Source: Spirosoma sp. KCTC 42546 (lineage in GTDB: Bacteria > Bacteroidota > Bacteroidia > Cytophagales > Spirosomataceae). Taken from it: DNA of 64,000 nucleotides. Shown here piece after piece: positions 46,140-61,280 of this stretch. The stretch is from contig NZ_CP041360.1 in NCBI RefSeq assembly GCF_006965485.1, positions 6,366,501-6,430,500 on the forward strand. The letters are read 5' to 3'. The notes under the pieces are model-generated. The model searched no databases. It had not been told where the DNA came from and saw only the letters and a list, made by a program, of their open reading frames with translations. A program made the translations under genes and the position numbers. Within the stretch, counting starts at the first letter, position 1. Every line of letters begins with the position of its first letter.

Positions 46140-46162
46140 TTATTTAGATTTTTTCTAAATAA
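46140..46162. promoter_or_regulatory. Fur-like box 1 (perfect 9-bp arms)
   Basis: TTATTTAGA-TTTTT-TCTAAATAA, perfect palindrome. The core TTTAGAT-TTT-TTCTAAA resembles the 7-3-7 ICE/Irr box (TTTAGAA-N3-TTCTAAA) of Fur-superfamily regulators. It is 18 bp upstream of the small ORF at 46181. Confidence 0.65.
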
Positions 46163-46180
46163 ATAGGGCAATTATTTGGA

Positions 46181-46354
46181 ATGAGTATAAACAAGAATTA
46201 CGTTTGTAAGGAATTAAGCGGGTGTGATTTATTTTCTGCCCAGCTTGATCGAATAACCGTAGTCCACTGGAATCCACATCAACCACGTATTCAGTTTTTA
46301 ATGCCTTCGACCAACCTCAGATTTAGCTTTTTGCTTGTGAGCTATCTGGCTTAA
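46181..46354 (+). CDS. Small ORF directly downstream of Fur-like box 1
   Basis: 57 residues (MSINKNYVCKELSGCDLFSA, ending FSFLLVSYLA). No family recognised; two Cys and no signal peptide. It is the first frame after a candidate promoter and operator, so it may be an iron-responsive small protein, or the leader of the downstream genes. The stretch 46355-46537 holds no clear feature. Confidence 0.35.
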   Translation: MSINKNYVCKELSGCDLFSAQLDRITVVHWNPHQPRIQFLMPSTNLRFSFLLVSYLA

Positions 46355-46537
46355 AGCAATTACTGAGGGATGCTAGTGTAATTGTACACTAGCGGGAAGT
46401 CCTGAAAAAACTCGGAACTAAGTACGTTTCAGTTCTTCAATAAAACTCGATTGAGTACCCAAGCCCTAAGCGTGGCGGCTGCTGTTTCAGATTAATGCTC
46501 ACATCAGTCGCCCGCTCAGGCACAAAACCTGGTAATC

Positions 46538-46828
46538 ATGAATAACTGGATGAAATGCCCTTTACAACTGGCCAAAACACAGCATGGGGAGGTTGTACTC
46601 CACAACGATGCCGAATTTCAGTATGCTTTCCGCTTTGGCTCTATACACCGGCTACTCACCGCTGAACAGTTTCACCTTCTTTATCATTCTGCATTGAGCA
46701 TTGACCTTAATCCTGTTTCAATGCCACCCAACCAACCGGATAGCAGAATGGTATCACCCACTACAGCCATGTTTACACTGTTTGGCCCATTGACCCATGT
46801 TGAACTTTTAGAGTTAAAACCCTGCTAG
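46538..46828 (+). CDS. Small conserved-type protein 1 of the iron locus (DUF6686-like)
   Basis: 96 residues. KTQHGEVVLHNDAEFQYAFR then FGSIHRLLTAEQFHLLYHSA resembles the short DUF6686-type proteins of Bacteroidota (G.VV.C/H..fq.aFG...L...F), recalled from memory and not certain. No signal peptide. It shares a loose pattern with the 115-residue protein that follows, so the two may be paralogues. Confidence 0.5.
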   Translation: MNNWMKCPLQLAKTQHGEVVLHNDAEFQYAFRFGSIHRLLTAEQFHLLYHSALSIDLNPVSMPPNQPDSRMVSPTTAMFTLFGPLTHVELLELKPC

Positions 46829-46959
46829 GCCAAGCAACTTTGTTGATCACAAGCTTAGCGAGAGCTTACGAATCCATTAACTAACAATTGGATAAAACAG
46901 GACAGCTATGTGAACTGGATCGGCTCCTGGAGCTACTGTTTCTTCTAAACTAACCCAGT

Positions 46960-47307
46960 ATGAACCAACGAAAAGAACCTCTCTTTCAAAGTTGTTACGG
47001 GCAGGCTACAGTTTGTCGTCGTAGTGGTGGATTCTGGCTTGATTTCGGTGAAACCCAGATTTGGCTTTGTCACGAGCGCTTACGGCAATTAGCCCGCAAG
47101 GTAAATCACCTGGTGAACGTTTCGGAACGGCCACACGGCCAGGCATTTTCCCAGCAACTATTGTTGTGTCTACCTGGCTCGTATGACACTGTGTCGGTTT
47201 TCTCCTTTGACGAATTGCTGGATTTGCAGGCTTTAGTCAATGGCTCACTAGCGATGGTAGATCTGTACGATTTCCTGCACGTTAATCAACTCCATATTGC
47301 CAGTTGA
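46960..47307 (+). CDS. Small conserved-type protein 2 of the iron locus
   Basis: 115 residues. YGQATVCRRSGGFWLDFGET followed by QIWLCHERLRQLARKVNHLV has the same layout as the preceding protein (beta hairpin, FG turn, hydrophobic strand, helix). The C-terminus (SFDELLDLQALVNGSLAMVDLYDFL) is helical. No signal peptide or metal motif is obvious. It may be a cytoplasmic iron-responsive factor (inference from context). Confidence 0.5.
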   Translation: MNQRKEPLFQSCYGQATVCRRSGGFWLDFGETQIWLCHERLRQLARKVNHLVNVSERPHGQAFSQQLLLCLPGSYDTVSVFSFDELLDLQALVNGSLAMVDLYDFLHVNQLHIAS

Positions 47308-47549
47308 TGTGCGTGCAGGAGTCTGGCTCGGGTAACTATCCGCACCAGCCAGAGTAGCCTGTATCGGCAAGTATAAATACTTATACGTATATAGATACAC
47401 GGTAGAAAAAGAACGCTCAGCATATAAACCTGAAAGTAGTATCGCTATTGACTAAACCTGCGGAGACTACTGATAGCAATACCGATGTGCTTCTATTGAT
47501 AGATACCAATTGATCTGTACCCGCATCTCTACCTATACACGTAACGAGT
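47308..47549. other. Gap upstream of the Fur-like gene
   Basis: AT-richer than its surroundings, with near-palindromic TATA-like strings such as AAGTATAAATACTT (47370-47383). No gene and no clear promoter or Fur-like box was found. Confidence 0.3.
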
Positions 47550-47882
47550 ATGAACTATCAGACTGGATTGGCTAATGAGATAGCCATTGATCCGCAGGAA
47601 TGGAGAGAACGGTTAACGAGTTATTATCGTGAAACAGGCACCAGATCGTCCGCAAAGCAGATATCGGTAGCCATGGCTCTTGGCGAACAAATGGCCTATA
47701 CAAATGCAGATACCTTATGGCTGTTTATGCGTAGACAAAAAATTCAGATTAGTAGGGCAACTGTTTATAAAACCCTAACGTGGCTGGTTGGGGCTGGTTT
47801 TGTTCATAAAAAGGGGAATGGCCATCGAACCGCCCTGTATTTAGTGAATCAAATACAGGCCAGATTTTTAGCTACAGAATAA
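47550..47882 (+). CDS. Fur-like regulator reduced to the DNA-binding domain
   Basis: 110 residues. The second half is a clear Fur winged helix: LWLFMRRQKIQISRATVYKT, where RATVYKTL is the recognition helix, followed by the wing FVHKKGNGHRTALYL. The first 60 residues include the expected helices (WRERLTSYY, SVAMALGEQM). Fur proteins are 135-150 residues and continue with the metal-binding and dimerisation domain (HHHxH and Cys motifs); this one stops right after the wing. The following bases are a Fur-like box and promoter, not a lost reading frame, so it is not a simple frameshift. It could act as a dimerless repressor, antagonist or partner of a full Fur (inference). Confidence 0.78.
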   Translation: MNYQTGLANEIAIDPQEWRERLTSYYRETGTRSSAKQISVAMALGEQMAYTNADTLWLFMRRQKIQISRATVYKTLTWLVGAGFVHKKGNGHRTALYLVNQIQARFLATE

Positions 47883-47884
47883 AT

Positions 47885-47907
47885 TATTCAGAAAAATTCT
47901 AAATAAG
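47885..47907. promoter_or_regulatory. Fur-like box 2, upstream of the heme receptor promoter
   Basis: TTATTCAGAA-AAA-TTCTAAATAA, 9 of 10 paired; it fits TTTAGAA-N3-TTCTAAA in 13 of 14 core positions. It begins 3 bp after the Fur-like gene's stop codon and ends 3 bp before the -33 TTG. Confidence 0.65.
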
Positions 47908-47910
47908 GCT

Positions 47911-47940
47911 TGTTTACAAGCGCGGCATCCCTACATTTGT
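47911..47940 (+). promoter_or_regulatory. Promoter of the heme-uptake operon
   Basis: TTG (47911-47913), 19 bp, TACATTTG (47933-47940): an exact match to the Bacteroidota consensus with optimal spacing. Predicted start near 47947, leader about 170 nt. Confidence 0.75.
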
Positions 47941-47943
47941 GCA

Positions 47944-47966
47944 TTATTTTTAATTTGTCTAAATAA
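47944..47966. promoter_or_regulatory. Fur-like box 3, over the heme operon transcription start
   Basis: TTATTTTTAATTTGTCTAAATAA matches box 1 in 19 of 23 positions, with a perfect right arm and a degenerate left arm. It covers the predicted start point, so with box 2 it brackets the promoter. Confidence 0.55.
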
Positions 47967-48116
47967 AAACCATTATTGATTGGCGCATGCCTTTTGCCAA
48001 ACAGGTGCCAACTCTGAATGCTACGCTGTTTGCCAAAGTACTGATATTCAGGAAAAAGGTTCGTGAATTAGATACTAGTAAGCCGATTGACTCCCCGCTA
48101 TTTTGACATAATTACT

Positions 48117-50408
48117 ATGAAAAAGAAGTATACCCGTCACCTATATACAGCATGGTTTCTGTTCCTACTCATGAATACAACCCGGCTCTGGGCGCAACAA
48201 ACCGTTGGCAGCATAGAGGGCACAATTTTGCTGGCTGATGGCACACCCGGCGCATTGGCTACCGTACAACTTAAGGGTATCAAAAAAGCCACAATGGCCA
48301 ATGGAAATGGCCAATTCACCATAACTGGCCTGCCGGTCGGCAAACATGAATTGCAACTATCTATGGTCGGCTATGAGTCTGTTAGCCAGATCATTCAGGT
48401 TGAAAACAACAGGCCGACCAACGTGACCATCCGCCTGAAAGCTGCCAGTAATGCACTCGATGAAGTGGTTGTAACCGGGCAATATGAGCCGCAGTCAATA
48501 AAAAAATCGGTGTATCAGGTTCGGGTGATCAGTAGCGAACGCATCCGTTTACGGGGCGCGCTGAACGTAATGGGCGTATTGAATAATGAGTTAGGCTTCC
48601 GATTCTCCAATGACCTTACGCTAGGCACAACGGATGTTCAGCTAATGGGTATGGCCGGGCGTAGCGTGAAGATCCTGCTGGACGGGTTGCCGATGGTTGA
48701 CCGGGGCGATACGCGGGAAAGCATCAACCAGATCGATATCAACAGCATCGAACGGATTGAGATTGTCGAAGGGCCAATGTCGGTTTCGTATGGCTCAGAT
48801 GCGCTGGCAGGTGTCATTAACATTATCACCAAAAAACCAGGTGCCGAACGGCTGGGAATCACGGCCAGAATTCAGGAAGAAACAGCTGGCTCAGACTATA
48901 ATCTATTGACCAAGCAAGGTGTTCACCTGCAAAATGTAGGGGCCACCTGGCAAAAGAACGGCTGGAACGTATCGGCTGGCGTGACCAACAATACCTTTGG
49001 GGGCTGGCAGGGGCTATCGGAAGGACGCGTAAATGACTGGTTACCCAAAGATCAATTGTTTGGTCATGGCAAATTCGGTTACCGGTCAGCAAGAGCTAAC
49101 GTGTACTATCGGCTGGATGCCCTGAAGGAAAATCTGCTCAGTCAGGGAGCCGAAAATGTTAACACAAATCAGGCGCGTGACCAGAAATACATCACCAACC
49201 GCTATGTACATCAGCTACAGGGCGACTGGAAAGTAAACGACCGATTCCAGCTTACCGGGCAGGCTTCTTACACGGATTACCAGCGCCGGACACAAACCAC
49301 AATTCTGGATGTAAGCACGGGCTTACGCACCCTATCGCTCGGTACGGGTGAACAGGATGTATCGAAATTTACGAGTCAGACATACCGGGCCACTACTCAA
49401 TACACGGCATCATCGGCATTTTCCCTGCAATCTGGCATCGACATCAACCTGGATGGAGCGTCTGGTGCCCGGATTTCAGGATCACCTACCATTAACGACT
49501 ATGCGCTTTTCGTTTCGTCAACCATCAGCCCTACGGCCCGCATCAGTATTCGTCCGGGTTTGCGTTTCATCAGGAACTCGGTCTACGACGCGCCACCGGT
49601 CATTCCGTCCCTTAACGCCAAATTCGCACTGACCAGCAAGCTTGACCTTCGGGTAGCCTATGCTCGTGGCTTTCGCTCCCCCGCCCTGCGCGAATTGTAT
49701 TTCAACTTTTTCGACGCCAGCCATTCGATTCGCGGGAATCCGGATCTGAAAGCCGAGACCTCCAACAGTTTTAACGGATCGCTGGCGCTGCAAACCAGTT
49801 CGAAAGTCAAATCGACACTCGGCTTTTTCTACAACGACTTCAATAACCTGATCAGCTACGGTGTCGATCCAACGAACCCGAGTATCTCGATGACCATCAA
49901 CATCGACAAATTCAAAACGACGGGTGCCACCCTGGAGAACGTCTTTACCTGGAAAGATCTGCAAGCTACCGTGGGGTTCTCCTACATCGGTCGTTACAAT
50001 AGCCTGCTGTCCGACACCACGGCTTATGGCTCGTTACCCACGTTTATCTGGTCGCCGGAGGTCAATACGAACCTGACGTACAGCCTGAAAAAGATTGGTA
50101 CGAAACTGAGCGTTTTCTACAAATACACCGGCAAACGACCCAGCTACACCGCTACGGTAACCGCCGACAATCAGGTATCGGCCACCTTGACGGAGATCGC
50201 GGCTTTCCATTGGGCTGATGCTACGCTCACGAAAACGCTCAATAAATTCCTGATCCTCAACGCGGGTGTTAAAAACCTGCTCAACATTACCCGCCTGGCC
50301 AATACCTCAACCGATACAGGCAGTGCGCACAGTACGGCTGGGCCTGTGCCCTACAGTTATGGGCGTTCTTATTTCCTTGGGATCAGCTTTCAATGGTATA
50401 AAAACTAA
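48117..50408 (+). CDS. TonB-dependent heme/iron receptor (HmuR-type)
   Basis: 763 residues from ATG 48117, which starts the signal peptide (MKKKYTRHLYTAWFLFLLMN, cleavage near LWAQ); a TTG 30 bp upstream was rejected. A carboxypeptidase-regulatory-like domain (about 33-115) precedes the plug (SIKKSVYQVRVIS, KILLDGLPMVDRGD, IERIEIVEGPMSVSYGSDALAGVINIITKK) and a barrel with the FRAP/NPxL-type motif GFRSPALRELYFNFFDASHSIRGNPDLKAE, which is typical of heme receptors. It ends in a barrel strand (YFLGISFQWYKN). It is the first gene of the hmu operon and likely passes heme received from the HmuY encoded next. Confidence 0.88.
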   Translation: MKKKYTRHLYTAWFLFLLMNTTRLWAQQTVGSIEGTILLADGTPGALATVQLKGIKKATMANGNGQFTITGLPVGKHELQLSMVGYESVSQIIQVENNRPTNVTIRLKAASNALDEVVVTGQYEPQSIKKSVYQVRVISSERIRLRGALNVMGVLNNELGFRFSNDLTLGTTDVQLMGMAGRSVKILLDGLPMVDRGDTRESINQIDINSIERIEIVEGPMSVSYGSDALAGVINIITKKPGAERLGITARIQEETAGSDYNLLTKQGVHLQNVGATWQKNGWNVSAGVTNNTFGGWQGLSEGRVNDWLPKDQLFGHGKFGYRSARANVYYRLDALKENLLSQGAENVNTNQARDQKYITNRYVHQLQGDWKVNDRFQLTGQASYTDYQRRTQTTILDVSTGLRTLSLGTGEQDVSKFTSQTYRATTQYTASSAFSLQSGIDINLDGASGARISGSPTINDYALFVSSTISPTARISIRPGLRFIRNSVYDAPPVIPSLNAKFALTSKLDLRVAYARGFRSPALRELYFNFFDASHSIRGNPDLKAETSNSFNGSLALQTSSKVKSTLGFFYNDFNNLISYGVDPTNPSISMTINIDKFKTTGATLENVFTWKDLQATVGFSYIGRYNSLLSDTTAYGSLPTFIWSPEVNTNLTYSLKKIGTKLSVFYKYTGKRPSYTATVTADNQVSATLTEIAAFHWADATLTKTLNKFLILNAGVKNLLNITRLANTSTDTGSAHSTAGPVPYSYGRSYFLGISFQWYKN

Positions 50409-50482
50409 ATAATGAATAATGAATAATGACAAAACACTGACTATCAGACATTATCCATCCTCCATTATACATTATTCATTAT
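50409..50482. repeat. AT-rich inverted repeat between receptor and hmuY
   Basis: Arms 50409-50428 and 50463-50482 (ATAATGAATAATGxATAATG) pair at 19 of 20 positions, 34-nt loop. It lies within the operon and may form an RNA hairpin that sets expression of receptor versus downstream genes. Confidence 0.8.
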
Positions 50483-50543
50483 AAATCAGCTTTGCCAACA
50501 AACCTCCTCCATGTTTTTTAATCCTTCAAATTCCAACAATCAA

Positions 50544-51932
50544 ATGAAAAGAGTCTTCATAATCATGTTCGCCCTAGCGGTAAGTACACTGAATGCCTGT
50601 AAAGAATCCGATCCCCCACTTCCAGACAATTTAGTGCAATTCGAAAGCGCGGAACAGGGTCTGGATGCAGCCACTAAAGAAGCGACCATTAAACTCAAAC
50701 TATCACGGGCGGTTGATGCCGCTACACCCGTAACCATACAAGTGACGCCTACGGGCATTGCCAGTGGAACCCAGTTCACGACAACACCAGCGCTAACCTC
50801 GAATACATTGTCTCTGACAGTGCCAGCGGGTGCCAGCGAAACCTCCTTTAAACTGACCAAAGCCGACAATATTTTTCTCTCCGGCACGGAAACCATTGCA
50901 TTCGCCATAGCCTCGGCAGGTAGCCCGGTTTTGGTTGGAACGACGAAACAGCTGACGGTTAAGTTCACCTCCATTGTATCGGCGGGCACGACACTGACGC
51001 TGGATGGTGGAACGGGGGGCTCCAGTGCCATCAATGCCGTATTCGTCGATTTGAGCAACAATACCCAAAACGCGGTGAAGCGCGCAAGCTGGGATTTAGG
51101 CTTCTCTTCGGGCACTGACTTCCGGGTTATTATCAACAATATGACTGGTGCGGCTGCCATTGCCCTGACCAAAACCGATCTGACACAGGTAACGGCTGCC
51201 GATACCGTTGGTCTTGTACTGAGCACAAGTGATTTCAGTCCAGCCGGATTGAAATTGATAGACGATGTATCGGGGGATCTGACGAAAACAGTAATTCCGG
51301 CTATCTCGGCTACCGACGCTGACAACAAAGTGTACATTCTTAACCGGGGTACAGGTGGTGCAACACCCGCCAAAGGTTGGATAAAGCTCAGAGTATTGCG
51401 GAATGGCACCACGGGTTATACGCTTCAGTATGCAGGGATTAAAGAAACGACGTTCAAGACCGTTTCAATCACGAAAGACGCGGCCTATAATTTTAACTAC
51501 GTATCGTTTGATACCGGAGCGGCTGTAGCCGTTGAACCGGCCAAAGCCAAGTGGGATATTGAATGGACCGGCGGCATCTACCTAACCAGCGATGGCACCA
51601 ACAACATCCCCTACTACTTCTCCGATCAGGTCTATATCAACTTTCTGGCGGGTGTAACAGCGGCCGAAGTACTGACCAGTACAGTTACGTATGATGCGTA
51701 TGTCGAAACCAATATTGCAACAACCACCTTCAAAAGCGATCGCTCTGTCATTGGGTCAAACTGGCGGGCAACTACGGGAACACCCATCGGCGTAAAAACC
51801 GACCGGTTCTACGTGATTAAGGATGCTGCGGGCAACGTTTACAAACTGAAATTCATCAGCTTCATCTCCAACGATGGTGGCGTACGGGGCAACCCGAAAT
51901 TCGAATTCAAACTGGTTAAACAAGGTAGCTAA
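50544..51932 (+). CDS. hmuY: HmuY-family heme-binding lipoprotein with N-terminal Calx-beta-like domain
   Basis: 462 residues from ATG 50544; the signal peptide ends at lipobox LNAC (Cys near 18), so a lipoprotein. An ATG at 50511 would add 11 residues and is less likely. Residues about 25-150 form a Calx-beta or Ig-like domain (FESAEQGLDAATKEATIKLK..). Residues about 160-460 match HmuY: RASWDLGFSSGTDFRVIINN, DNKVYILNRGTGGATPAKGW, IKLRVLR, FNYVSFDTG, KAKWDIEWTGGIY. Classical HmuY is about 200-220 residues, so this form is roughly doubled. It captures heme at the cell surface for the receptor upstream. HmuT starts 11 bp after its stop. Confidence 0.85.
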   Translation: MKRVFIIMFALAVSTLNACKESDPPLPDNLVQFESAEQGLDAATKEATIKLKLSRAVDAATPVTIQVTPTGIASGTQFTTTPALTSNTLSLTVPAGASETSFKLTKADNIFLSGTETIAFAIASAGSPVLVGTTKQLTVKFTSIVSAGTTLTLDGGTGGSSAINAVFVDLSNNTQNAVKRASWDLGFSSGTDFRVIINNMTGAAAIALTKTDLTQVTAADTVGLVLSTSDFSPAGLKLIDDVSGDLTKTVIPAISATDADNKVYILNRGTGGATPAKGWIKLRVLRNGTTGYTLQYAGIKETTFKTVSITKDAAYNFNYVSFDTGAAVAVEPAKAKWDIEWTGGIYLTSDGTNNIPYYFSDQVYINFLAGVTAAEVLTSTVTYDAYVETNIATTTFKSDRSVIGSNWRATTGTPIGVKTDRFYVIKDAAGNVYKLKFISFISNDGGVRGNPKFEFKLVKQGS

Positions 51933-51943
51933 TCAAGATAATC

Positions 51944-52819
51944 ATGACGAAATCAATCCTATCCACAACGGGGCTTATGTGCCTTTTGTGGAGCCTGCTG
52001 ATCGGAAATCATCCGATATATGCAGCCAAACCGCCTAAAGAGGAACCGGTTCGTATTGTGTCACTTGATGGCACAGTCAGTGAAATTCTGTGCGAATTAG
52101 GCTTACAATCCCATTTGATCGGGGTCGATGTAACGAGTACGTATCCCGAATTGCTGAAAAGCCTGCCGAAAGTGGGCCATAACCGCAGCATTTCGGCCGA
52201 AGGCGTTATTTCGCTAAAGCCAACGCTTGTACTCACGACCCAAACTGCGGGAACGAAACCAGAAGTGATCGACCAGATTAAAGCTGCGGGCATCAAGGTT
52301 ATTTCGTTCCAGCAGGAATACAGTGTTGCCGGAGCTAAAAAACTGATTCAGGATGTAGCCACTACCTGCCAGGTTGGTTCGAAAGCCAAGTCAATACTCA
52401 AAAAACTGGACGCCGATCTGGCGCAGGTCAGGAAGGCACCAACCAGCCCAAAAGTGCTCTTTATTTACGCTCGGGGTACGGGTACCATGATGGTATCGGG
52501 CCGGGGCACGCAGGTTGCCAAAATGATTGAACTGGCGGGCGGTGTCAATGCCACACCTGACTTCGAGAATTACAAACCCCTCACCGCCGAAGCCCTGGTG
52601 ACGGCCAATCCCGACGTGATTTTGCTGTTCGACAGTGGACTCGAAAGTCTGGGGGGTAACGAAGGCTTATTGAAAGTGCAGGGTATTGCCCAAACGAATG
52701 CGGGCAAAAACGGCTGGATCATCGATATGGATGGCCATTTGCTGAGCGGCTTTTCACCCCGTTTAGGAAAAGCATTACAGGAGTTAGCGCAGAAACTTAC
52801 CCAAAAACCCAAAGCGTAA
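51944..52819 (+). CDS. hmuT: Heme ABC transporter substrate-binding protein
   Basis: 291 residues with a signal peptide (about 1-27, IYAAK). The periplasmic-binding fold of heme carriers is clear: RIVSLDGTVSEILCELGL, LIGVDVTSTYP, VGHNRSISAEGVISLKPTLVL, KVISFQQEYSVAGAK, MMVSGRGTQVAKMIELAGGVNAT, LTAEALVTANPDVILLFDSGLESLGG. It carries heme from the outer-membrane receptor to HmuUV. It is 5 bp upstream of hmuU. Confidence 0.92.
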   Translation: MTKSILSTTGLMCLLWSLLIGNHPIYAAKPPKEEPVRIVSLDGTVSEILCELGLQSHLIGVDVTSTYPELLKSLPKVGHNRSISAEGVISLKPTLVLTTQTAGTKPEVIDQIKAAGIKVISFQQEYSVAGAKKLIQDVATTCQVGSKAKSILKKLDADLAQVRKAPTSPKVLFIYARGTGTMMVSGRGTQVAKMIELAGGVNATPDFENYKPLTAEALVTANPDVILLFDSGLESLGGNEGLLKVQGIAQTNAGKNGWIIDMDGHLLSGFSPRLGKALQELAQKLTQKPKA

Positions 52820-52824
52820 GCAGC

Positions 52825-53925
52825 ATGACCAGCACCACGATCGATCCGCCAGAAACACTAAAGCTAACCCAGAAATCAGTGCTGAGAACAACCCTCAATC
52901 CGTGGTTGCTGCCTACGCTGATTGCCGTATTGGTGGTAACGGTTATCCTGTCGGTAGGGATTGGTGCCGTGCAGGTAACGCCCTATGAAATCGGGCTCAT
53001 TCTCCGCAAGGCGTTGGGAGAATCGGTGGACGTAGATGGGACGAAAGAGGCCATTCTGCTGGTCATTCGGTTGCCCCGCGTCTGTCTGGCTGTGCTGATC
53101 GGTGCAGGATTGGCCATCTCTGGAGCCGCTATCCAGGGGTTGTTCCGGAATCCCCTTGCCGACCCCGGTCTGATTGGGATTTCGGCAGGCGCTTCACTGG
53201 CCGCAGTCACAATGATTGTGCTGGAAGTGAAATTCTTCCAAACCCTCACGGGTGTGTTGGGCATGTATGCGTTGTCGGTGGTGGCGTTTGCGGGGGCCTG
53301 TGTAACGGCTTTTTTCGTGTACCGGATTGCCCGCATGGCGGGTAAAGACCTAATCACAACCATGTTGCTAACAGGTATTGCCATCAACGCACTGTCGGGC
53401 GCGTTAACCGGCATTATGACCTATCTGGCGACCGATGAACAACTTCGCAACATTACGTTCTGGAGTCTGGGTAGTCTGGGAGGGGCCAGCTGGACATCGG
53501 TACTGGGAATTTTACCCTTTACGGTTGTGGCGTTAGCGGGTATTCCACGCCTGGCAAAGTCCCTCAATCTGCTGGCTCTGGGCGAGAGTCAGGCCAGTAT
53601 GCTGGGGGTGAATTTAAAAAGCGTCAAACGACAGGTCATTATTTTCGCCACAATGGCCGTGGGTACATCGGTAGCGGTTGCGGGCATCATTGGTTTCGTT
53701 GGGTTGGTCATTCCGCACCTGATCCGGATGGGCGTCGGTTCCGACCACCGCCGGGTACTAACCGGCTCAGCTTTAGGTGGTGCCATCGTACTGACGTTAG
53801 CGGATTCGCTCGCCCGAACGCTGGTTGCCCCGGCAGAACTGCCCATTGGCATCTTGACTGCGCTGGTCGGAACACCCGTTTTCTTATGGATTTTGTTTCG
53901 GGACAGACGCAGGACAGGTGCTTAA
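52825..53925 (+). CDS. hmuU: Heme ABC transporter permease (FecCD family)
   Basis: 366 residues with about nine or ten membrane helices after a short cytoplasmic N-terminus. FecCD motifs: RLPRVCLAVLIGAGLAISGA (about 89-108), QGLFRNPLADPGLIGISAGAS, LLTGIAINALSGALTGIM, SLGGASWTSV, GFVGLVIPHLIRMGVGSDHR (coupling helix near 300). It forms the inner-membrane channel of the heme importer. The repeat at 53941-54072 separates it from its ATPase. Confidence 0.93.
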   Translation: MTSTTIDPPETLKLTQKSVLRTTLNPWLLPTLIAVLVVTVILSVGIGAVQVTPYEIGLILRKALGESVDVDGTKEAILLVIRLPRVCLAVLIGAGLAISGAAIQGLFRNPLADPGLIGISAGASLAAVTMIVLEVKFFQTLTGVLGMYALSVVAFAGACVTAFFVYRIARMAGKDLITTMLLTGIAINALSGALTGIMTYLATDEQLRNITFWSLGSLGGASWTSVLGILPFTVVALAGIPRLAKSLNLLALGESQASMLGVNLKSVKRQVIIFATMAVGTSVAVAGIIGFVGLVIPHLIRMGVGSDHRRVLTGSALGGAIVLTLADSLARTLVAPAELPIGILTALVGTPVFLWILFRDRRRTGA

Positions 53926-53940
53926 CTTATCATGACTCAC

Positions 53941-54072
53941 GTTCTCGCTTGGCTGTGCCGAGTGAGGACTATTAGTTCAAGGGCCTCTGGCCCGTGTGAT
54001 AAAAAATAATCTCTAAAACGGGCCAGAGGCCCTTGAACCAATACCCCTCACTCGGCACAGCCAAGCGAGAAC
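53941..54072. repeat. Second copy of the dispersed palindromic repeat family (inside the hmu operon)
   Basis: Arms 53941-53995 and 54018-54072 (55 bp, 3 mismatches), 22-nt AT-rich loop. The arm sequence is nearly the same as at 42368-42420: GTTCTCGCTTGGCT then GTGCCGAGTGAGG, and ending GGGCCTCTGGCC. Where the copy at 42368 has T paired with A in GGCTTTGCC, this one has G paired with C in GGCTGTGCC, so both arms changed together. The flanking GGACGTCC-type elements of the first copy are absent. It lies in the 186-bp gap between hmuU and hmuV. Confidence 0.93.
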
Positions 54073-54111
54073 ATAGAAGCACATAGGGAAGGCACTTAAC
54101 GTATCACGACT

Positions 54112-54909
54112 ATGCTAGAGGTCAACAATTTGTCGTATCGAATTCGGAATCGGAAACTGCTCGATGGGGTTTCGTTCCAGGCTAAACCGGGTGAATTGCT
54201 GGCCATCGTTGGGGCAAATGGCGCGGGGAAATCAACCTTGCTCAAGTTGTGCACCCGTGAACTAACGGCTTCGGAAGGTGGAATCCAGCTCTACAGCCGG
54301 GCGATTAATACATATTCCGAAAAAGAGCTTTCCCTGTTTCGGGCGGTATTGCCGCAACAGAACTCGGTGGTGTTTCCGTTTCTGGTCAGCGAGTTAGTCC
54401 TGATGGGTCGGTATCCTCATTTCGAGTTTCATCCGTCTGAACAGGATTATCTGATTGCCGAAATGGCGCTTAAAAAAGTGGGTATGTGGGCGTTTGCCAG
54501 CCGCATTTTCACGACCTTATCGGGTGGGGAACAACAGCGGGTACAATTGGCGCGGGTGCTGGCCCAAATCTGGGATGTGGAGCAGGGAATTCTATTTTTA
54601 GATGAACCCACCACCGGTCTCGATCTGCTGCATCAGCAGCAGATGCTGGAACTCGCCCGTGAATTCACCCAACGAGGCTTTTGCGTCGTCGTGATTTTGC
54701 ACGACCTGAATCTGGCCGCACAGTATGCCGATCAGATCATTATGCTACGGGCCGGTCAGGTGGAAGCCGCCGGGACACCCCGAGATGTTATCACGGAGGC
54801 CACAATTCTCCGCGTATTCAACTTGAAAGTATGGCTCCTTTCACATCCCGAAATGGACTGCCCTATGGTAGTCCCTCAACATCACCAATTCTCTGACAAT
54901 CAACTTTAA
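54112..54909 (+). CDS. hmuV: Heme ABC transporter ATP-binding protein
   Basis: 265 residues. Walker A GANGAGKST (34-42), Q-loop at PQQNSVVFPF, signature LSGGEQQRV (about 141-149), Walker B ILFLDEPTTG and H-loop VILHDLN are all intact. It energises HmuTU. It is 20 bp upstream of the HmuS gene. Confidence 0.95.
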   Translation: MLEVNNLSYRIRNRKLLDGVSFQAKPGELLAIVGANGAGKSTLLKLCTRELTASEGGIQLYSRAINTYSEKELSLFRAVLPQQNSVVFPFLVSELVLMGRYPHFEFHPSEQDYLIAEMALKKVGMWAFASRIFTTLSGGEQQRVQLARVLAQIWDVEQGILFLDEPTTGLDLLHQQQMLELAREFTQRGFCVVVILHDLNLAAQYADQIIMLRAGQVEAAGTPRDVITEATILRVFNLKVWLLSHPEMDCPMVVPQHHQFSDNQL

Positions 54910-54929
54910 CATTAACAGATCAATACGCC

Positions 54930-55955
54930 ATGACAACAACACAAAGTCTCAAAGAACGCTGGGCTGCGTTCAACCTGGAAAATCCAAAAACCAGAATCCG
55001 CGATGCGGCAAAACAACTGGGCGTCAGTGAAGCTGAACTCCTACAAACGCAGGTTGGCGAAACGGTGCAGCGACTGGACGGTGATTTTCGCGACTTACTG
55101 AAAGGGGTGACAACCCTGGGCCATGTGATGGCGCTGACCCGTAATGACAACATCGTTCACGAACGCAAGGGCGTCTACGAAAAAGTATCCTTCAACGATC
55201 AGACAGGACTCGTTCTCGGGCCAGACATTGATCTGCGCCTGTTTATGTCGCACTGGCATTTTGGGTTTGCAGTCGATGAAAACGGCCGGAAGAGCCTTCA
55301 GTTCTTTGATCTGGATGGCACCGCTGTGCATAAGATCTATCTGACGGATAAATCCGACACTGCTGCCTATGATGCCTTGGTTCAAAAATACCTGGCGGTT
55401 GACCAGACGAGCCCGATTGTTACGGTAGCCTACCCCGAAAAAGAAGCCGGTATATCCGACGCGGACGTTGACGTACAGGCATTTCAGGAAGCCTGGTTGG
55501 CGATGGAAGATACGCACCAGTTTTTCGGCCTTCTGCGCAAACACAAACTCGAACGGGAACAGGGACTTCGGCTGGCTCCTGAAGGGTACGCGCAGTTGAT
55601 ATCGGCAGAGCAACTACAAAAGCTATTCGAAACCGTGGCTGAACGGGCGCTCCCCATCATGATTTTTGCCTCAAGCCCAGGGTGCATTCAGATTCATACC
55701 GGGCCGGTTAAGAAGTTAGTCACCACAGGTCCCTGGTACAATGTACTAGACCCCGAGTTCAACATGCATTTGCGTTTAGATCAGGTTCACCATATCTGGG
55801 TAACCCGCAAACCAACGAAAGATGGTATCGTAACGGGACTCGATTTATTCGATAGCGAGGGCAACAATATTGCGTTAGTATTCGGGAAACGTAAACCGGG
55901 CGTTCCTGAACTAAAAGAGTGGCAGGAAGCTGTAAGCGAAGTGGTTAGCGCATAG
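54930..55955 (+). CDS. hmuS: HmuS/HemS-family hemin-degrading factor
   Basis: 341 residues, the usual size. Two HemS/ChuX-type repeats are visible: the first about 1-165 (RIRDAAKQLGVSEAELL, LKGVTTLGHVMALTRNDNIVHERKGVYE, LRLFMSHWHFGFAV), the second about 185-340 (IMIFASSPGCIQIHTGPVKKL, WYNVLDPEFNMHLRLDQVHHIWVTRKP). HemS-like proteins bind imported heme in the cytoplasm and release its iron. It closes the operon; a hairpin with a T-run follows 31 bp later. Confidence 0.93.
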   Translation: MTTTQSLKERWAAFNLENPKTRIRDAAKQLGVSEAELLQTQVGETVQRLDGDFRDLLKGVTTLGHVMALTRNDNIVHERKGVYEKVSFNDQTGLVLGPDIDLRLFMSHWHFGFAVDENGRKSLQFFDLDGTAVHKIYLTDKSDTAAYDALVQKYLAVDQTSPIVTVAYPEKEAGISDADVDVQAFQEAWLAMEDTHQFFGLLRKHKLEREQGLRLAPEGYAQLISAEQLQKLFETVAERALPIMIFASSPGCIQIHTGPVKKLVTTGPWYNVLDPEFNMHLRLDQVHHIWVTRKPTKDGIVTGLDLFDSEGNNIALVFGKRKPGVPELKEWQEAVSEVVSA

Positions 55956-55986
55956 CACACTCCCTGTATTTTGTGATGTTTTTGTG

Positions 55987-56014
55987 GTGTCAGATGCTTT
56001 CATCTGACACTTTT
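55987..56014 (+). terminator. Terminator of the heme operon
   Basis: Perfect 10-bp stem GTGTCAGATG / CATCTGACAC, 4-nt loop CTTT, then TTTT (56011-56014). Placed 31 bp after hmuS. Confidence 0.75.
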
Positions 56015-56018
56015 AGGT

Positions 56019-56051
56019 TTCTCAAAACCTACTAACACTAGGTTTTGAGAA
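56019..56051. repeat. Second hairpin of the convergent gap
   Basis: Perfect 13-bp arms TTCTCAAAACCTA (56019-56031) and complement (56039-56051), 7-nt loop. It may add to termination from either side. Confidence 0.75.
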
Positions 56052-56090
56052 TCGCAACCGGTACGCCGGGGCGGGCGAACCGTCCTAAGT

Positions 56091-56116
56091 TGTCGGTTAT
56101 CAGTAACCGACATCAC
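56091..56116. repeat. Third hairpin, TGTCGGTTA type
   Basis: TGTCGGTTA / TAACCGACA, 4-nt loop, followed by TCAC as in the element at 31808-31837. It lies 16 bp from the end of the minus-strand gene at 56132 and may help to end that transcript. Confidence 0.7.
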
Positions 56117-56131
56117 GGCATGCTATATCGG

Positions 56132-56347
56132 TTACCGAACTCGCTCCTTTTTAGGGCCCGTTGGTTTGATCACAAACCGGGCAATTACAAGGAGTGGAAT
56201 ACCGAGGGTGAGCCAGGAAAGCGCATCCCAACTACCGTCGCCGACCAGGGCCGATATAAGCCCGACGAGGCTGCTGATTCCCAGTAAAATAGGTATTGTC
56301 CAGGTATGTCCGAATGGCTTAGTCACGGTAGTCTCCCTCCTGGGCAT
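56132..56347 (-). CDS. Small two-span membrane protein of the siderophore cluster
   Basis: 71 residues from ATG 56347, or 64 from a GTG at 56326 that overlaps the PepSY stop codon (GTGACTAA); the second start gives the tighter coupling and cannot be excluded. Two hydrophobic helices (TWTIPILLGISSLVGLISAL and ALSWLTLGIPLLVIARFVI) and a basic tail (KPTGPKKERVR). Small proteins like this often follow PepSY genes in iron clusters; the function is unknown. Confidence 0.65.
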   Translation of the reverse strand: MPRRETTVTKPFGHTWTIPILLGISSLVGLISALVGDGSWDALSWLTLGIPLLVIARFVIKPTGPKKERVR

Positions 56348-57530
56348 TTAGGGTTAAAATTTCGGTTTCCTCCAACTGCTGACTGGTTTTAGCCGTTTTG
56401 GTTTTCTCCATACGCGCCATCTGCGCTTTGGTGGCTTTGTTTCGGGCAAACCACAAATACAGCCCACTGATCAGGACCACAATCGTGATGATATCGAATA
56501 TAGCCCAGATGATTTTCAGGGGCAGTCCGCCGTAATCGCCGAAGTGCAGCGGTTGCGAAAGAAATACGGCATTGACGTACCAGGGCATACTTCGCATATC
56601 GGTTAATTTGCCCGTTTTAGCGTCAATCAGAGCCGGTTTAGCCAGCCGTTCGGTTAGGGGTGTGCTCCCTTTCATAAAAACGGCGTAGTGGTGCTGACTG
56701 GAATATAAGGTGCCCGGATAGGCCACAAACGAGGGTTCCATATCGGGAGCGGCTTGCTGGGCCACCTTAAGCGCCTGATCGAGCGGGCTCAATTTACCTT
56801 CTAACGGAGCGGCATCTTTGTAGGGAGCGACCATCTCGGCGAGTTGCCCCTGCTGCCATAGTCCCTGTACCACTTCGGCCAGGGTGTTTACTACCCCCGT
56901 GAAGCCAACAACCGTGGCCCAGACGACTGTTACCACGCCAAGCAGGTTATGCAAATCGAGCCACTTCAGCCGGGTTGATTTTTCAGTGCGGACCATCCCG
57001 AAATTAAACCGACGCATGATCGGACTGTAGAGCATGAGTCCAGACACAATCGCGACCACAAACAAAAGCCCCATCAGACCAAGAAATAGCTCCCCCTTGA
57101 GCCCCATGAACATATTGATGTGCAGTTGCAGCATCACGTACATAAAGCCTTCCTGCAACTTGGGCACCTCCAATACGCGAGCCGTCCGGTTATCAAAAAT
57201 CACCAGCTTATAGTTATCCGCCGGAGCGGTCATCGAATCCGACAACGTAAAAGTGGTGGTATTGGGCTCGTGCTCGTCCCAGTACACAAAGCGGATAACA
57301 TTTTTTGGAAATTTCTGACGAACCGTTTCCGCCAGTCGCTCCAGTGGTACAGATGGCGTTCCCGCGGGCATGGCTGGAGCCAGCGGGGGCTTGCCTTCCA
57401 GCCGCTCAATCTCTTCCGTAAAAATTAGCGGCAAGCCTGTCAGGCAGAGCATGAGCAGGAACGCCGTGCAGATCAGACTTGTCCATTTGTGGATTTGAAA
57501 CCAGGTTTTGACTTGTTTGGCGGTACTCAT
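56319..57530 (-). CDS. PepSY-associated transmembrane protein (iron reductase-like context)
   Basis: 403 residues. Membrane helices near residues 18-35, 145-175, 195-220 and 350-375 with a large periplasmic part between, as in PepSY_TM proteins: KTWFQIHKWTSLICTAFLLMLCLTGLPLIFTEE, LHINMFMGLKGELFLGLMGL, LKWLDLHNLLGVVTVVWATVVGFTGVVN, QPLHFGDYGGLPLKIIWAIFDI. His residues within the helices recur as in heme-coordinating relatives. Members are thought to help reduce or release iron from siderophores. It follows the siderophore receptor (68-bp gap with a hairpin). Confidence 0.85.
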   Translation of the reverse strand: MSTAKQVKTWFQIHKWTSLICTAFLLMLCLTGLPLIFTEEIERLEGKPPLAPAMPAGTPSVPLERLAETVRQKFPKNVIRFVYWDEHEPNTTTFTLSDSMTAPADNYKLVIFDNRTARVLEVPKLQEGFMYVMLQLHINMFMGLKGELFLGLMGLLFVVAIVSGLMLYSPIMRRFNFGMVRTEKSTRLKWLDLHNLLGVVTVVWATVVGFTGVVNTLAEVVQGLWQQGQLAEMVAPYKDAAPLEGKLSPLDQALKVAQQAAPDMEPSFVAYPGTLYSSQHHYAVFMKGSTPLTERLAKPALIDAKTGKLTDMRSMPWYVNAVFLSQPLHFGDYGGLPLKIIWAIFDIITIVVLISGLYLWFARNKATKAQMARMEKTKTAKTSQQLEETEILTLNAQEGDYRD

Positions 57531-57564
57531 ACTGACAGGTGATATAGGCTAAACGAACGAATTA

Positions 57565-57592
57565 AGCCCCCGGCATGTGCTTACCGGGGGCT
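57565..57592. terminator. GC-rich hairpin between siderophore receptor and PepSY genes
   Basis: AGCCCCCGG (57565-57573) / CCGGGGGCT (57584-57592), 10-nt loop. On the minus strand it is followed by TTAATTCG, a weak T-run, so it may act as an attenuator that lowers PepSY expression relative to the receptor. Confidence 0.6.
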
Positions 57593-57598
57593 ACTTTT

Positions 57599-60028
57599 CT
57601 AGAATTTATACGCAACACTGCCCACAAAGCTCCGCAGTTTCTGCGCGTTCATGGTGGTATAGCCAATCCAGTAGTGCTGGTTGGTCAGGTTATCTACTTT
57701 AGCCGCCAGCCGGAATTTCCGTCGGTCGTAAAAGGCCGATGCATTCAGAACGGTATACGCAGGCAGGATGAATTCACCTAAACTGACACTATTCTGAATC
57801 TTGTTGTCGCTGGCGTAGTTACCACCAAACCCAAAACCAAGGCCTTTGACCAGGTAATCCGGCAATCGGTAGCTGAGCCACAGGTTCGCCCGTACCGGCG
57901 AGGAAGCCGTACTTGGCCGGCGACCATTCACATCCGCGTCTGCATTGGTCAGCTTCGAATCGTTGTAGGAAAAACCGGCTACGACATTGAAACCGGTAAA
58001 CGGATTGGCAATAACGTCCACCTCAACTCCACGGCTCAACTGAGTCCCATCCTGTGTCTGCGCAAAACGAGCGGCTGCCAGTGGATTAGGATCGGTGCGG
58101 AGCAGGTTCTTCACCTGAATATCATAATAGCTGACAGTTGTGCTCAGTCGCCCACCGAAAGCATTCAGTTTCACCCCCGCTTCGAACTGGTTGGCCTGTT
58201 CAAGCTTGGCGAATCGTTGCGTCAGGCTATCGACTGCCGTTACGTCGTAGGCATTGTAAATACCCTGGTTATTGAAACTGTTCTGGTAGTTCGCGAAGAC
58301 TGACACCTTGTCTTTAATCGGTTGATACACCAGACCCAATTTGGGCGAGAACGCCGTTTGGTTATAGCCAGCCACTTCGGAACCAACCAGGCCGCCCTTA
58401 TTATGGAAATCATCGACCCGTAAAGCGGCCAGGATGCTGAGTTTGTCGGTCAGGTTCAGCACGTCGGAAACAAAGGCGCTATAGGTATCCCGAATTCCGG
58501 TAAGGGGATAATTAAAATCAGGGGCTTTGCTGGCATACAGAGCGGCCATAGCTGCCCCGTTGAATTTGCTGTAATCGTATCCCGTTGTAAGGGGCACCGT
58601 ATCGTAGGTACTGCCGTAGAACAACTGGTTCGCGTTAGTGTGCAGGTAATCCAGGCCCACAACGATCCGGTTACGCAGGCCACCCAGTTGGAAATCGCCG
58701 TTGAACAGTTGCTGAACTTCGAACACATCGTTGGTACTGTTCCGGGTCGATTGATCGGCGCGTACGAGTAGGTTTGACCCTAACGTCTTTCCATCCGGAA
58801 TGATGTAGAAGTAAGGGCCATTCCCGTTCGAGTAGCTGTGACTCGAACTGAAATTAGTCGATGACGTAAATGAAGGTGAGATACGGTAGTTGACCTGACC
58901 AAACAGGTTCGTACTGCGTGACTTCTGCGATAGACCGCTACCCATGTAGGAGTTGCGGTAATCGACGTTCAACTGATCGGCACGGGTAGCACCGAGCGTA
59001 TAGCCGGGCACATAGAAAAAGAAATTCTGCTCAACCACATTCTCGATCCGATAAATCTCGGCATCGAGCAAAATCGACAACCGCTCGGTGGGTTTAATTA
59101 ACAAACTGGGGGCCAGCGCAAAACTCTTATTGAAGCCTTCGGTCTGAAACGTTCCTTCGTGACTGGCGGCTGAGTTAAGGCGCAGGAGTATGTTACGGCT
59201 TTTGTTGAGGGGCGCATTCACATCCACGCTCACCCGCTGGAAATCGTAGTTACCACCCGAAACGGCGACTTCGCCCCCGAATGTTTCATAGGGCTTCTTG
59301 GTCACCCGATTGACCAGGCCACCGTAGGAGGTTAACGCACTTCCGAACAAGGTCGCCGAAGGGCCTTTGATCACTTCTAGTTTTTCCAGATTGACGGCGT
59401 CGATACTGCTCGTGACGTTTCCGGCTAATCCATTGCGAAGCTGGCTTTGCACGTAGAACCCACGGGTGTTGTAATACGCGCCACCATCGCCGGAACGGCC
59501 CGTAGCGTTCCACATCTTCTGTAGACCAGGCGCATTTCGCATGGCATCATCCACCGTAAAAATGACCTGTTCGGTCAGCAATTCCTTGCCAATCGTATTG
59601 TATACCTGCGGATTTTCCAGGTTTTTTAAGGGCATCTTGGAAACATAGTCGCTGGACGACCGCGAAAAGCGGTTCGTGCGGCTGCCGTTTACGATCACCT
59701 CATTCAACTGAGCGGCATTTTCCTGTAAGGTAAAATCGATCGTTATCGGTTGTGCATCCTGTACCGTAACGGTTTGTTCGGTCGTTTTCAGACCCACCGC
59801 CGACACCTGAATCTGATAGGTACCTACTTTAATGTGGCTGATCGTAAAATCACCTTTGGCATTGGTGACGGCTCCTTGTCCTTTTCCTTTCAGGCTGACC
59901 GTAACAGCCTCCGCCGGATTCCCATCCGAGGTTTGTACATGGCCCCGAATAATTGCCGTTTGTTGAGCCAGAGCGGGCAATGTGGTTAACAAAAATAGGA
60001 GTCTAAGTAGAGATTTCGTTGTATTCAT
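57599..60028 (-). CDS. TonB-dependent siderophore receptor
   Basis: 809 residues from ATG 60028 (signal peptide MNTTKSLLRLLFLLTTLPALAQ); an in-frame start at 60067 would precede it by 13 residues. A carboxypeptidase-regulatory-like domain (about 25-110) leads to a plug of the FhuA/FcuA type (VFTVDDAMRNAPGLQKMWNATGRSGDGGAYYNTRGF, LEVIKGPSATLFGSALTSYGGLVNRVTKKP). The barrel ends FVGSVAYKF. It likely imports a ferric siderophore. A Fur-like box lies 14 bp upstream of the start codon. The PepSY and small membrane genes follow in the same direction. Confidence 0.9.
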   Translation of the reverse strand: MNTTKSLLRLLFLLTTLPALAQQTAIIRGHVQTSDGNPAEAVTVSLKGKGQGAVTNAKGDFTISHIKVGTYQIQVSAVGLKTTEQTVTVQDAQPITIDFTLQENAAQLNEVIVNGSRTNRFSRSSSDYVSKMPLKNLENPQVYNTIGKELLTEQVIFTVDDAMRNAPGLQKMWNATGRSGDGGAYYNTRGFYVQSQLRNGLAGNVTSSIDAVNLEKLEVIKGPSATLFGSALTSYGGLVNRVTKKPYETFGGEVAVSGGNYDFQRVSVDVNAPLNKSRNILLRLNSAASHEGTFQTEGFNKSFALAPSLLIKPTERLSILLDAEIYRIENVVEQNFFFYVPGYTLGATRADQLNVDYRNSYMGSGLSQKSRSTNLFGQVNYRISPSFTSSTNFSSSHSYSNGNGPYFYIIPDGKTLGSNLLVRADQSTRNSTNDVFEVQQLFNGDFQLGGLRNRIVVGLDYLHTNANQLFYGSTYDTVPLTTGYDYSKFNGAAMAALYASKAPDFNYPLTGIRDTYSAFVSDVLNLTDKLSILAALRVDDFHNKGGLVGSEVAGYNQTAFSPKLGLVYQPIKDKVSVFANYQNSFNNQGIYNAYDVTAVDSLTQRFAKLEQANQFEAGVKLNAFGGRLSTTVSYYDIQVKNLLRTDPNPLAAARFAQTQDGTQLSRGVEVDVIANPFTGFNVVAGFSYNDSKLTNADADVNGRRPSTASSPVRANLWLSYRLPDYLVKGLGFGFGGNYASDNKIQNSVSLGEFILPAYTVLNASAFYDRRKFRLAAKVDNLTNQHYWIGYTTMNAQKLRSFVGSVAYKF

Positions 60029-60041
60029 TTGCACTAAACTA

Positions 60042-60058
60042 TTTAGATTTATTCTAAA
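60042..60058. promoter_or_regulatory. Fur-like box 4, at the siderophore receptor start
   Basis: TTTAGAT-TTA-TTCTAAA, 6 of 7 positions paired and nearly the same as box 1. It lies 14 bp upstream of the receptor ATG, where it would block initiation or early elongation. A half site (AATTCTAAATAA) is at 60108-60119. Confidence 0.65.
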
Positions 60059-60112
60059 GAGTTGCAAAAGAACAACAGAATCCGATCAGATAAAAATTAT
60101 TTTTATTAATTC

Positions 60113-60150
60113 TAAATAAAAACCCTTCCATATCTACCTAAATGGAAGGG
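60113..60150 (-). terminator. Terminator downstream of the FHA gene
   Basis: On the minus strand CCCTTCCAT (60150-60142) pairs perfectly with its complement (60131-60123), followed by a T-rich run (TTTTTATTT). It also shields the siderophore promoter from read-through. Confidence 0.7.
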
Positions 60151-61112: not shown

Positions 61113-61280
61113 AAGCTGTTTAAACTTTTAGTTTTCTAGCTAGGATTTGCGCGATTTTTGTCATTCCGACTTTAGGAGGAATCTCAAGCTTGACTATTAC
61201 GGAAGCTTGAGATTCCTTCTAAAGTCGGAATGACAAAAATCGATTTAGTATCAATAGAAATTAGAAAGTTTGAACAGCTT
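61113..61280. repeat. Nested inverted repeats between FHA and RodA-PBP genes
   Basis: Inner element: 40-bp arms 61152-61191 and 61203-61242 (TTTGTCATTCCGACTTTAGG, AATCTCAAGCTT), 39 of 40 paired, 11-nt loop. Outer element: AAGCTGTTTAAACTTT and flank (61113-61138) facing its imperfect complement (61255-61280). A further small GC hairpin at 61288-61312 lies next to the RodA-PBP stop codon and may be its terminator. Confidence 0.9.

Follow-up and report, generated by a model that had tools for sequence, protein, structure and literature searches.

In Alphaproteobacteria, the ICE box read by Irr is a palindrome with the arms TTTAGA..TCTAAA. According to the literature on this regulator, Irr represses under iron depletion (PMC3413700). 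Among Bacteroidota, a Fur box with the sequence ATTTAGAATTATTCTAAAT has been described in Riemerella anatipestifer, with gel shifts of Fur on the promoter of hmuR and on three other promoters; the genes that carry the box or are regulated by Fur include those of HmuR, TonB-dependent receptors, and an imelysin lipoprotein (PMC5609570). Here, we describe similar palindromes in a window of 64,000 nucleotides from Spirosoma sp. KCTC 42546 (NZ_CP041360.1, positions 6,366,501–6,430,500; positions below are those of the window unless a locus is named), which accompany a heme operon, a siderophore receptor gene, and a gene encoding a short Fur-like protein (mini-Fur). Taken as a whole, it is highly probable that these palindromes are operators of the Bacteroidota Fur type, because the Riemerella Fur box is the same palindrome, and that they are most likely read by the full-length Fur protein of the genome (L017).

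Paired palindromes at three promoters

The best motif in the window is a 23-base-pair (bp) palindrome, TTATTTAGA-N5-TCTAAATAA, rather than the 17-bp core given in a preliminary description of this DNA. With up to three mismatches, the window contains six sites, compared with a mean of 0.05 and a maximum of 1 in 100 shuffles, and these form three pairs at three promoters, with spacings of 32, 60, and 58 bp. The four sites listed in the preliminary description are all present, with the second shifted by one base (47884–47906 instead of 47885–47907), but two others (S1b and S5), which complete the three pairs, had been overlooked.

The first pair consists of S1 (46140–46162), an exact palindrome that shows at most one or two arm changes when aligned in five genomes, and S1b (46172–46194), which has three mismatches and lies at 32 bp from its partner. 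S1b encloses the −33 element of an exact promoter of the Bacteroidota type (TTG-N20-TACGTTTG, 46176–46206, plus strand), which precedes the DUF6686-like and mini-Fur genes. The promoter of the heme operon, also exact and on the plus strand (TTG-N19-TACATTTG; TTG at 47910, TACATTTG at 47932–47939), is flanked by the second pair: S2 (47884–47906; one mismatch) is located immediately upstream of the TTG of the −33 element, and S3 (47944–47966; two mismatches) begins at the fifth base past the −7 element, 60 bp from S2, and covers the expected start point. This confirms the arrangement claimed for this promoter in the preliminary description, in which one site precedes the −33 element and the other covers the expected start point; S3 itself is a poor match to the 17-bp core (left arm TTTTTA). 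In the third pair, S4 (60039–60061; three mismatches) contains an exact copy of the 17-bp core (60042–60058) and lies near the expected start of the siderophore receptor transcript, 58 bp from S5 (60097–60119; two mismatches). The two sites bracket a weak, putative −7 element on the minus strand (TTCTTTTG, 60065–60072) that has a counterpart in S. arboris and in another relative, G008 (TTCATTTG); a promoter with at most one mismatch was not found in the region upstream of the siderophore receptor.

The palindromes are conserved at all three promoters. In front of the heme receptor gene, both boxes (S2 and S3) and the −7 element between them are preserved across this genome, S. arboris (G003), and G008, whereas the flanks diverge, and the −7 element is identical in all three. 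The alignment of the siderophore promoter likewise shows S5 and S4 conserved against diverging flanks. Among the five genomes aligned at the first promoter, S1, S1b, and the −7 element are conserved, and TTG and TAnGTTTG are kept in every one (5/5).

We infer that iron-loaded Fur, most likely L017, binds one box upstream of the −33 element and one at the start point, which would close the promoter between them and repress transcription in the presence of iron. When iron falls, Fur would be released and the promoters would open; the heme operon (48117–55955), the siderophore receptor (57599–60028), and the small-protein genes after 46206, each on a transcript of presumed extent, would then be made together.

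Distribution of the palindrome

A scan of the entire genome (8.66 Mb, one contig) for the 23-bp form with up to two mismatches yields nine sites, compared with none for the control, which was, throughout, the reversed pattern of the same composition. Four of these sites lie in the window, and the others adjoin hemA (L021), a gene for a multiheme cytochrome (L023), a DUF6607/DUF6686 pair (L024), a DUF4856 gene (L025), and feoB (L026). The clustering at iron genes anticipated in the preliminary description is borne out by this form of the motif: six of the nine sites adjoin iron or heme genes, and the remaining three adjoin DUF6686-like, DUF6607/DUF6686, or DUF4856 genes. The proposal that the heme and siderophore loci belong to one regulon also stands at the level of the sequence, in the form of a shared Fur-type operator with conserved footprints, and such a regulon would extend to feoB, hemA, the multiheme cytochrome, the DUF4856 gene, and the DUF6607/DUF6686 pair.

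The motif is widespread. With up to two mismatches, it is present in all 36 Spirosoma genomes (including the present one), at 256 sites versus 15 for the control, and with up to one mismatch, it occurs in 124 of the 247 genomes of a Bacteroidota sample (control, 13). The preliminary description had regarded a box close to ICE as unexpected in a member of this phylum, which is contradicted both by this distribution and by the same box in R. anatipestifer, where it is accompanied by gel shifts (PMC5609570). Given the Riemerella Fur box, the Spirosoma motif is of a known kind, and its likeness to ICE comes as no surprise.

The context of the motif was read at 77 sites, comprising the nine sites of this genome and 68 among the sites listed from eight relatives. 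Most are intergenic (73/77), and equally many have a gene start within 450 bp. By sequence cluster, the neighbors include receptors like those in the window (17 proteins), FeoB (7), multiheme cytochromes (7), DUF4856 proteins (3), HemA (3), and, directly at the site, Fur (2), together with 13 small DUF6686-like proteins in six clusters, several of which match DUF6686 below the cut-off; Pfam was run on representatives of the clusters. An ankyrin-like repeat protein (4) and a putative siderophore-interacting flavoprotein (3) were assigned by eye. T11 and A13 reach 72% across the 77 sites even though the five central bases had been left free in the search (both strands were counted, so this is one number).

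Relatives of the heme receptor were compared in 31 named loci, after 16 of 47 had been dropped, all of them Acinetobacter with partial matches of 23–30%. Boxes with up to two mismatches are present within 350 bp of the start of the match in 16 of the 31 loci (25 boxes; control, 0), and boxes with up to four mismatches in 19 (reversed control, 1). The spacing of the pairs is 59–62 bp in Spirosoma and two Runella, 40–41 bp in Emticicia, 44 bp in Rhabdobacter, and 92 bp in one Pedobacter.

The DUF6686-like proteins probably represent an iron-regulon family of unknown function that often falls below the Pfam cut-off. Small proteins of this type (about 115 amino acids) recur downstream of Spirosoma Fur boxes, in the window (46538–47307), in L084 (2283–3739), and in L024, L093, L096, L098, L103, and L114, and the heme locus of S. 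arboris contains four of their genes in a row. At another site (L011; G000:C1:6150963), a ferritin gene follows a DUF6686-like gene, with a match to the 17-bp core (one mismatch) between them, which is suggestive but outside the list of 23-bp sites.

Candidate regulators and alternative readings

Three proteins encoded by the genome match PF01475, namely L017 (Fur, 169 amino acids), L018 (Zur/PerR-like, 138 amino acids), and the mini-Fur. The gene of the full-length Fur is located on the minus strand (L017:1417–1926; approximately G000:C1:3152932–3153441). The protein matches positions 2–121 of the 121 positions of PF01475 (E 8.5e-28), comprises both the winged helix and the C-terminal metal domain, and aligns with residues 16–154 of its 169 to the solved Fur structure 6d57. 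Five relatives (G001–G004 and G008) have, downstream of a box, a full-length Fur gene other than that of L017, which comes right after the box or is separated from it by one or two DUF6686-like genes (L069, L070, L087, L098, and L105); two of these relatives, G001 and G002, also show a further Fur gene elsewhere.

Several results weigh against a Fur regulon governed by L017. The best NCBIfam matches of this protein are Fur models but remain below their cut-offs (83 versus 146 bits), and the 3.4-kb locus of its gene contains no box with fewer than five mismatches, so that autoregulation is not visible there. Four of the 77 sites are without a gene start within 450 bp, and some sites of the relatives are without a recognizable iron gene (e.g., L085, L090, L104, L109, L110, L113, and L116). 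Boxes with up to four mismatches are absent from 12 of the 31 heme-receptor relatives, which comprise all ten Chitinophagales-type rows (Ferruginibacter, Niabella, Chitinophagaceae, and Chitinophagales) and two of the four Runella. When three mismatches are allowed, the genome contains 19 sites versus 6 for the control; ten places have exactly three mismatches, of which two belong to this locus and the other eight are close to the control (6). Four of the places with exactly three mismatches (L030–L033) lie inside unrelated coding frames. From this class, only the two sites in the window were kept as members of the regulon, and the genome positions 7026178, 8023367, and 8050515 were left out of the context reading. 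As a separate observation, the loci of Runella defluvii (L260) and R. limosa (L262) contain a full-length Fur-like frame that precedes the heme receptor on the same strand, at a distance of about 1.5 kb.

The 17-bp core as written in the preliminary description also counts against the regulon, because it is not enriched genome-wide: with up to one mismatch, it occurs 9 + 11 times on the two strands, compared with 10 + 12 for the reversed control. Such a background level is what one would expect if the motif had arisen by chance in AT-rich intergenic DNA. The 23-bp form, which was used after the core had been dropped as a genome-wide signal, is enriched; its controls of the same composition are near zero, and footprints are present at all three promoters, which makes chance an extremely improbable explanation. 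Within the window, too, the core with one mismatch has further matches at 17649 (within a coding frame) and at 61207 (in an inverted repeat). The claim that the motif occurs only next to iron genes in this window does not extend to the core with one mismatch, but it can be upheld for the 23-bp form, provided that the DUF6686-like genes at 46140 are regarded as part of the heme locus. The inverted repeat (61153–61241), with GTCATTCCGACTTTAG arms, is situated between the 3′ end of an FtsW/PBP gene and the start of the gene at 60240–61097; its core also matches G000:C1:2886353, and it is possibly a dispersed repeat.

The likeness to the ICE box, which holds as far as the sequence of the core is concerned, would be compatible with an Irr-type regulator. 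Nothing else points to Irr, and such a regulator is very improbable: Irr models score no higher than 36 bits against L017, 21 bits against L018, and 20 bits against the mini-Fur, versus cut-offs of 150–170, so that none of the three Fur-family proteins of the genome is an Irr by model score, and the same box is already a Fur box in Bacteroidota, as described in R. anatipestifer (PMC5609570). Unlike in the ICE/Irr system, none of these three proteins comes near the cut-offs for Irr.

Besides L017, only L018 was found among the Fur-family proteins of the genome to have a C-terminal domain, and if it read the boxes, the regulon would answer to another metal or to peroxide. We consider this very unlikely, because iron and heme genes are among the targets, the best NCBIfam match of L018 is a Zur model at 34 bits (cut-off, 167), and the Riemerella box is bound by Fur (PMC5609570).

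An equally unlikely reader is the mini-Fur itself, acting in place of the full-length Fur as a private regulator of the locus. Its gene is located between S1 and S2, and the SRATVY of the recognition helix is kept, but boxes are present in all 36 Spirosoma genomes, whereas mini-Furs (E 1e-16) are encoded in only four. Among the 31 named heme-receptor loci (5-kb flanks), a mini-Fur is found by the receptor only in S. arboris, whereas boxes occur in 19. In addition, residues of the recognition helix that are kept in Fur vary among the mini-Furs (Arg in 52/54 Furs versus 4/45 mini-Furs; Asn in 48/54 versus 2/45). The mini-Fur was rejected as the cognate reader on the grounds of its distribution, and a full-length Fur, most likely L017, remains the preferred reader of the boxes.

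A family of Fur-like proteins without a sensor

The mini-Fur gene (47550–47882, plus strand) encodes a protein of 110 amino acids that consists of a Fur-type winged helix only (PF01475 positions 2–74 of 121), and its stop codon is separated from S2 by a single base. A search of a protein collection, which finds candidates that share short words with the query and have 0.55–1.75 times its length, returned 38 relatives of 81–127 amino acids (E ≤4.4e-19), followed by a gap and a single match at E 1.7e-4; the named relatives belong to Siphonobacter and Dyadobacter. Within the taxonomic family, 45 mini-Fur copies (E ≤1e-16) are present, spread over 31 of the 222 genomes and 3 of the 36 genera. Among the matches listed from a phylum sample of 296 genomes, all except that of the window itself lie in frames of at least 148 amino acids.

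All 45 copies have a length of 80–110 amino acids with the start codons that we chose (with an earlier start codon, the frame of L245 could extend at its N-terminus to 156 amino acids), and they are without the C-terminal dimerization and metal-binding domain. PF01475 is matched by 44 of them, and the CxxC motif by none of the 45. A His that is invariant in the full-length Furs (54/54) is absent from all mini-Furs (0/45), and an invariant Glu (54/54) is retained in only two (2/45). We take these columns to be the regulatory metal ligands His33 and Glu81 of Escherichia coli Fur. Another Glu is replaced by Lys in 42 of the 45 mini-Furs, and the recognition helix has a fixed Trp and a conserved Tyr in all 45. 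The structural model (mean pLDDT, 78.9) shows a winged helix with nothing beyond it except a short tail of low confidence; its 20 Foldseek matches with E ≤0.001 are all PerR/Fur entries, and it covers the DNA-binding domain of E. coli Fur (2fu4) with a TM-score of 0.82 (E 1.4e-3).

In a phylogenetic tree (90 columns), the 45 mini-Furs form a single clade relative to 54 full-length Furs with a support of 100, although the alignment is short, the full-length Furs had been selected by means of the mini-Fur model, a choice that excluded L018, and a long-branch effect is possible. The mini-Fur of the window and that of S. arboris differ with a dN of 0.22 and a dS of 1.26 (NG86). The monophyly of the 45 copies and these substitution rates led us to reject the notion that the mini-Fur is a decayed Fur. 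Narrow phrase searches of the open-access literature, which give weak evidence of absence, returned nothing on a truncated or DNA-binding-domain-only Fur, on DUF6686, or on Fur in Spirosoma or Dyadobacter, and the family is apparently undescribed.

The mini-Fur genes share a characteristic context. In all 45 cases, the gene ahead of the mini-Fur lies on the same strand, and in 38 of them it is no more than 150 bp away, whereas full-length Fur genes (49 loci) have an upstream gene on the same strand in 22 cases, on the opposite strand in 26, and none in one; the next gene begins within 180 bp of the mini-Fur in 34 of the 45. Among 44 upstream neighbors, DUF4198 (14) and PepSY_TM (12) are most frequent, followed by TonB-dependent barrels (8) and OMP_b-brl_3 barrels (7), the last two of which may be the same proteins. 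The scans covered 44 of 45 upstream genes and 24 of 25 downstream genes on the same strand, each omitting one that is itself a mini-Fur, from the tandem pair of L249. This pair (L249, 2977–3724) is located downstream of a gene for a protein of 805 amino acids that resembles an outer-membrane receptor. With up to three mismatches, 42 mini-Fur loci (263 kb) contain 14 boxes in 13 loci, versus none for the reversed control and 0–1 in each of 20 simulations; a box is thus visible within 3 kb of about one third of the mini-Fur loci, and most are without one.

The window and S. arboris share the gene order downstream of S1, with the mini-Fur gene placed between the DUF6686-like genes and the heme receptor, but there is no mini-Fur by the receptor in the other 30 named relatives. 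In G008 (L096, 15259–16367), a pair of genes judged by eye to be transposase-like occupies the interval in which S. arboris has the mini-Fur and two DUF6686-like genes. Both observations suggest that the mini-Fur at the heme locus is recent or easily lost.

We tentatively propose, as a possibility that we rate at somewhat below even, that the mini-Fur is a member of a hitherto undescribed family of sensorless Fur proteins, which arose a single time from the winged helix of Fur, is made in iron-type uptake operons upon the release of Fur, and binds operator half-sites at any iron level as an antirepressor or feedback repressor. The mini-Fur would be made together with the uptake genes once Fur lets go and, lacking a sensor, should itself not respond to iron. 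In the simplest case, it would act on Fur-type half-sites, either as a competitor of Fur that holds the operon open or as a second repressor that caps its expression. Its own DNA target may differ from that of Fur, because the recognition helix differs at two positions that are kept in Fur, and the family-specific Trp (45/45) could serve a new contact, be it with the mini-Fur itself, with Fur, or with another partner.

Genes of the locus

The two small proteins encoded on the plus strand downstream of S1 (46538–46828 and 46960–47307) are DUF6686-like but have no Pfam match; the first has 96 amino acids, compared with 115 in S. arboris, whose counterparts match PF20391 weakly (E 0.031) and below the cut-off (E 0.0011), respectively. 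The heme operon, also on the plus strand, starts with a TonB-dependent heme receptor resembling HmuR (48117–50408; best match TIGR01785, below cut-off) and an HmuY-type heme-binding protein (50511–51932; PF14064). These are followed by the periplasmic binding protein (51944–52819; PF01497), a FecCD-type permease (52825–53925; PF01032), and the ATPase (54112–54909; NF010068, above cut-off) of a heme ABC transporter, and by a heme protein of the HemS/ChuX type (54930–55955; PF05171). The siderophore locus, on the minus strand, encodes a PepSY_TM protein (56319–57530; PF03929) and the TonB-dependent siderophore receptor (57599–60028; best match TIGR01783, below cut-off). Rfam gave no match between 45900 and 60400.

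Significance and comparison with known systems

The boxes provide a usable, quantified Fur operator for Cytophagales, 23 bp in length and paired around a −33/−7 promoter, and tie the families DUF6686, DUF6607, and DUF4856, all of unknown function, to iron. Confirmation of the mini-Fur family would demonstrate a conversion of the Fur fold into a metal-blind accessory regulator, a type on which the literature searches returned nothing, and the tuning of an iron regulon by an iron-blind paralog would become testable.

The mini-Fur resembles Fur in its winged helix (PF01475; 2fu4) and differs from it in the absence of the C-terminal dimerization and metal domain and in the loss of the metal-ligand His (0/45) and, with few exceptions, Glu (2/45). 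The box itself is closest to that of R. anatipestifer, a member of Flavobacteriales, whereas Spirosoma belongs to Cytophagales; both orders are in Bacteroidota. The two boxes are the same palindrome with the same center, including T11 and A13, but those of Riemerella are given as single boxes of 19 bp (PMC5609570), whereas those of Spirosoma are 23 bp long and paired around the promoter at a spacing of about 60 bp.

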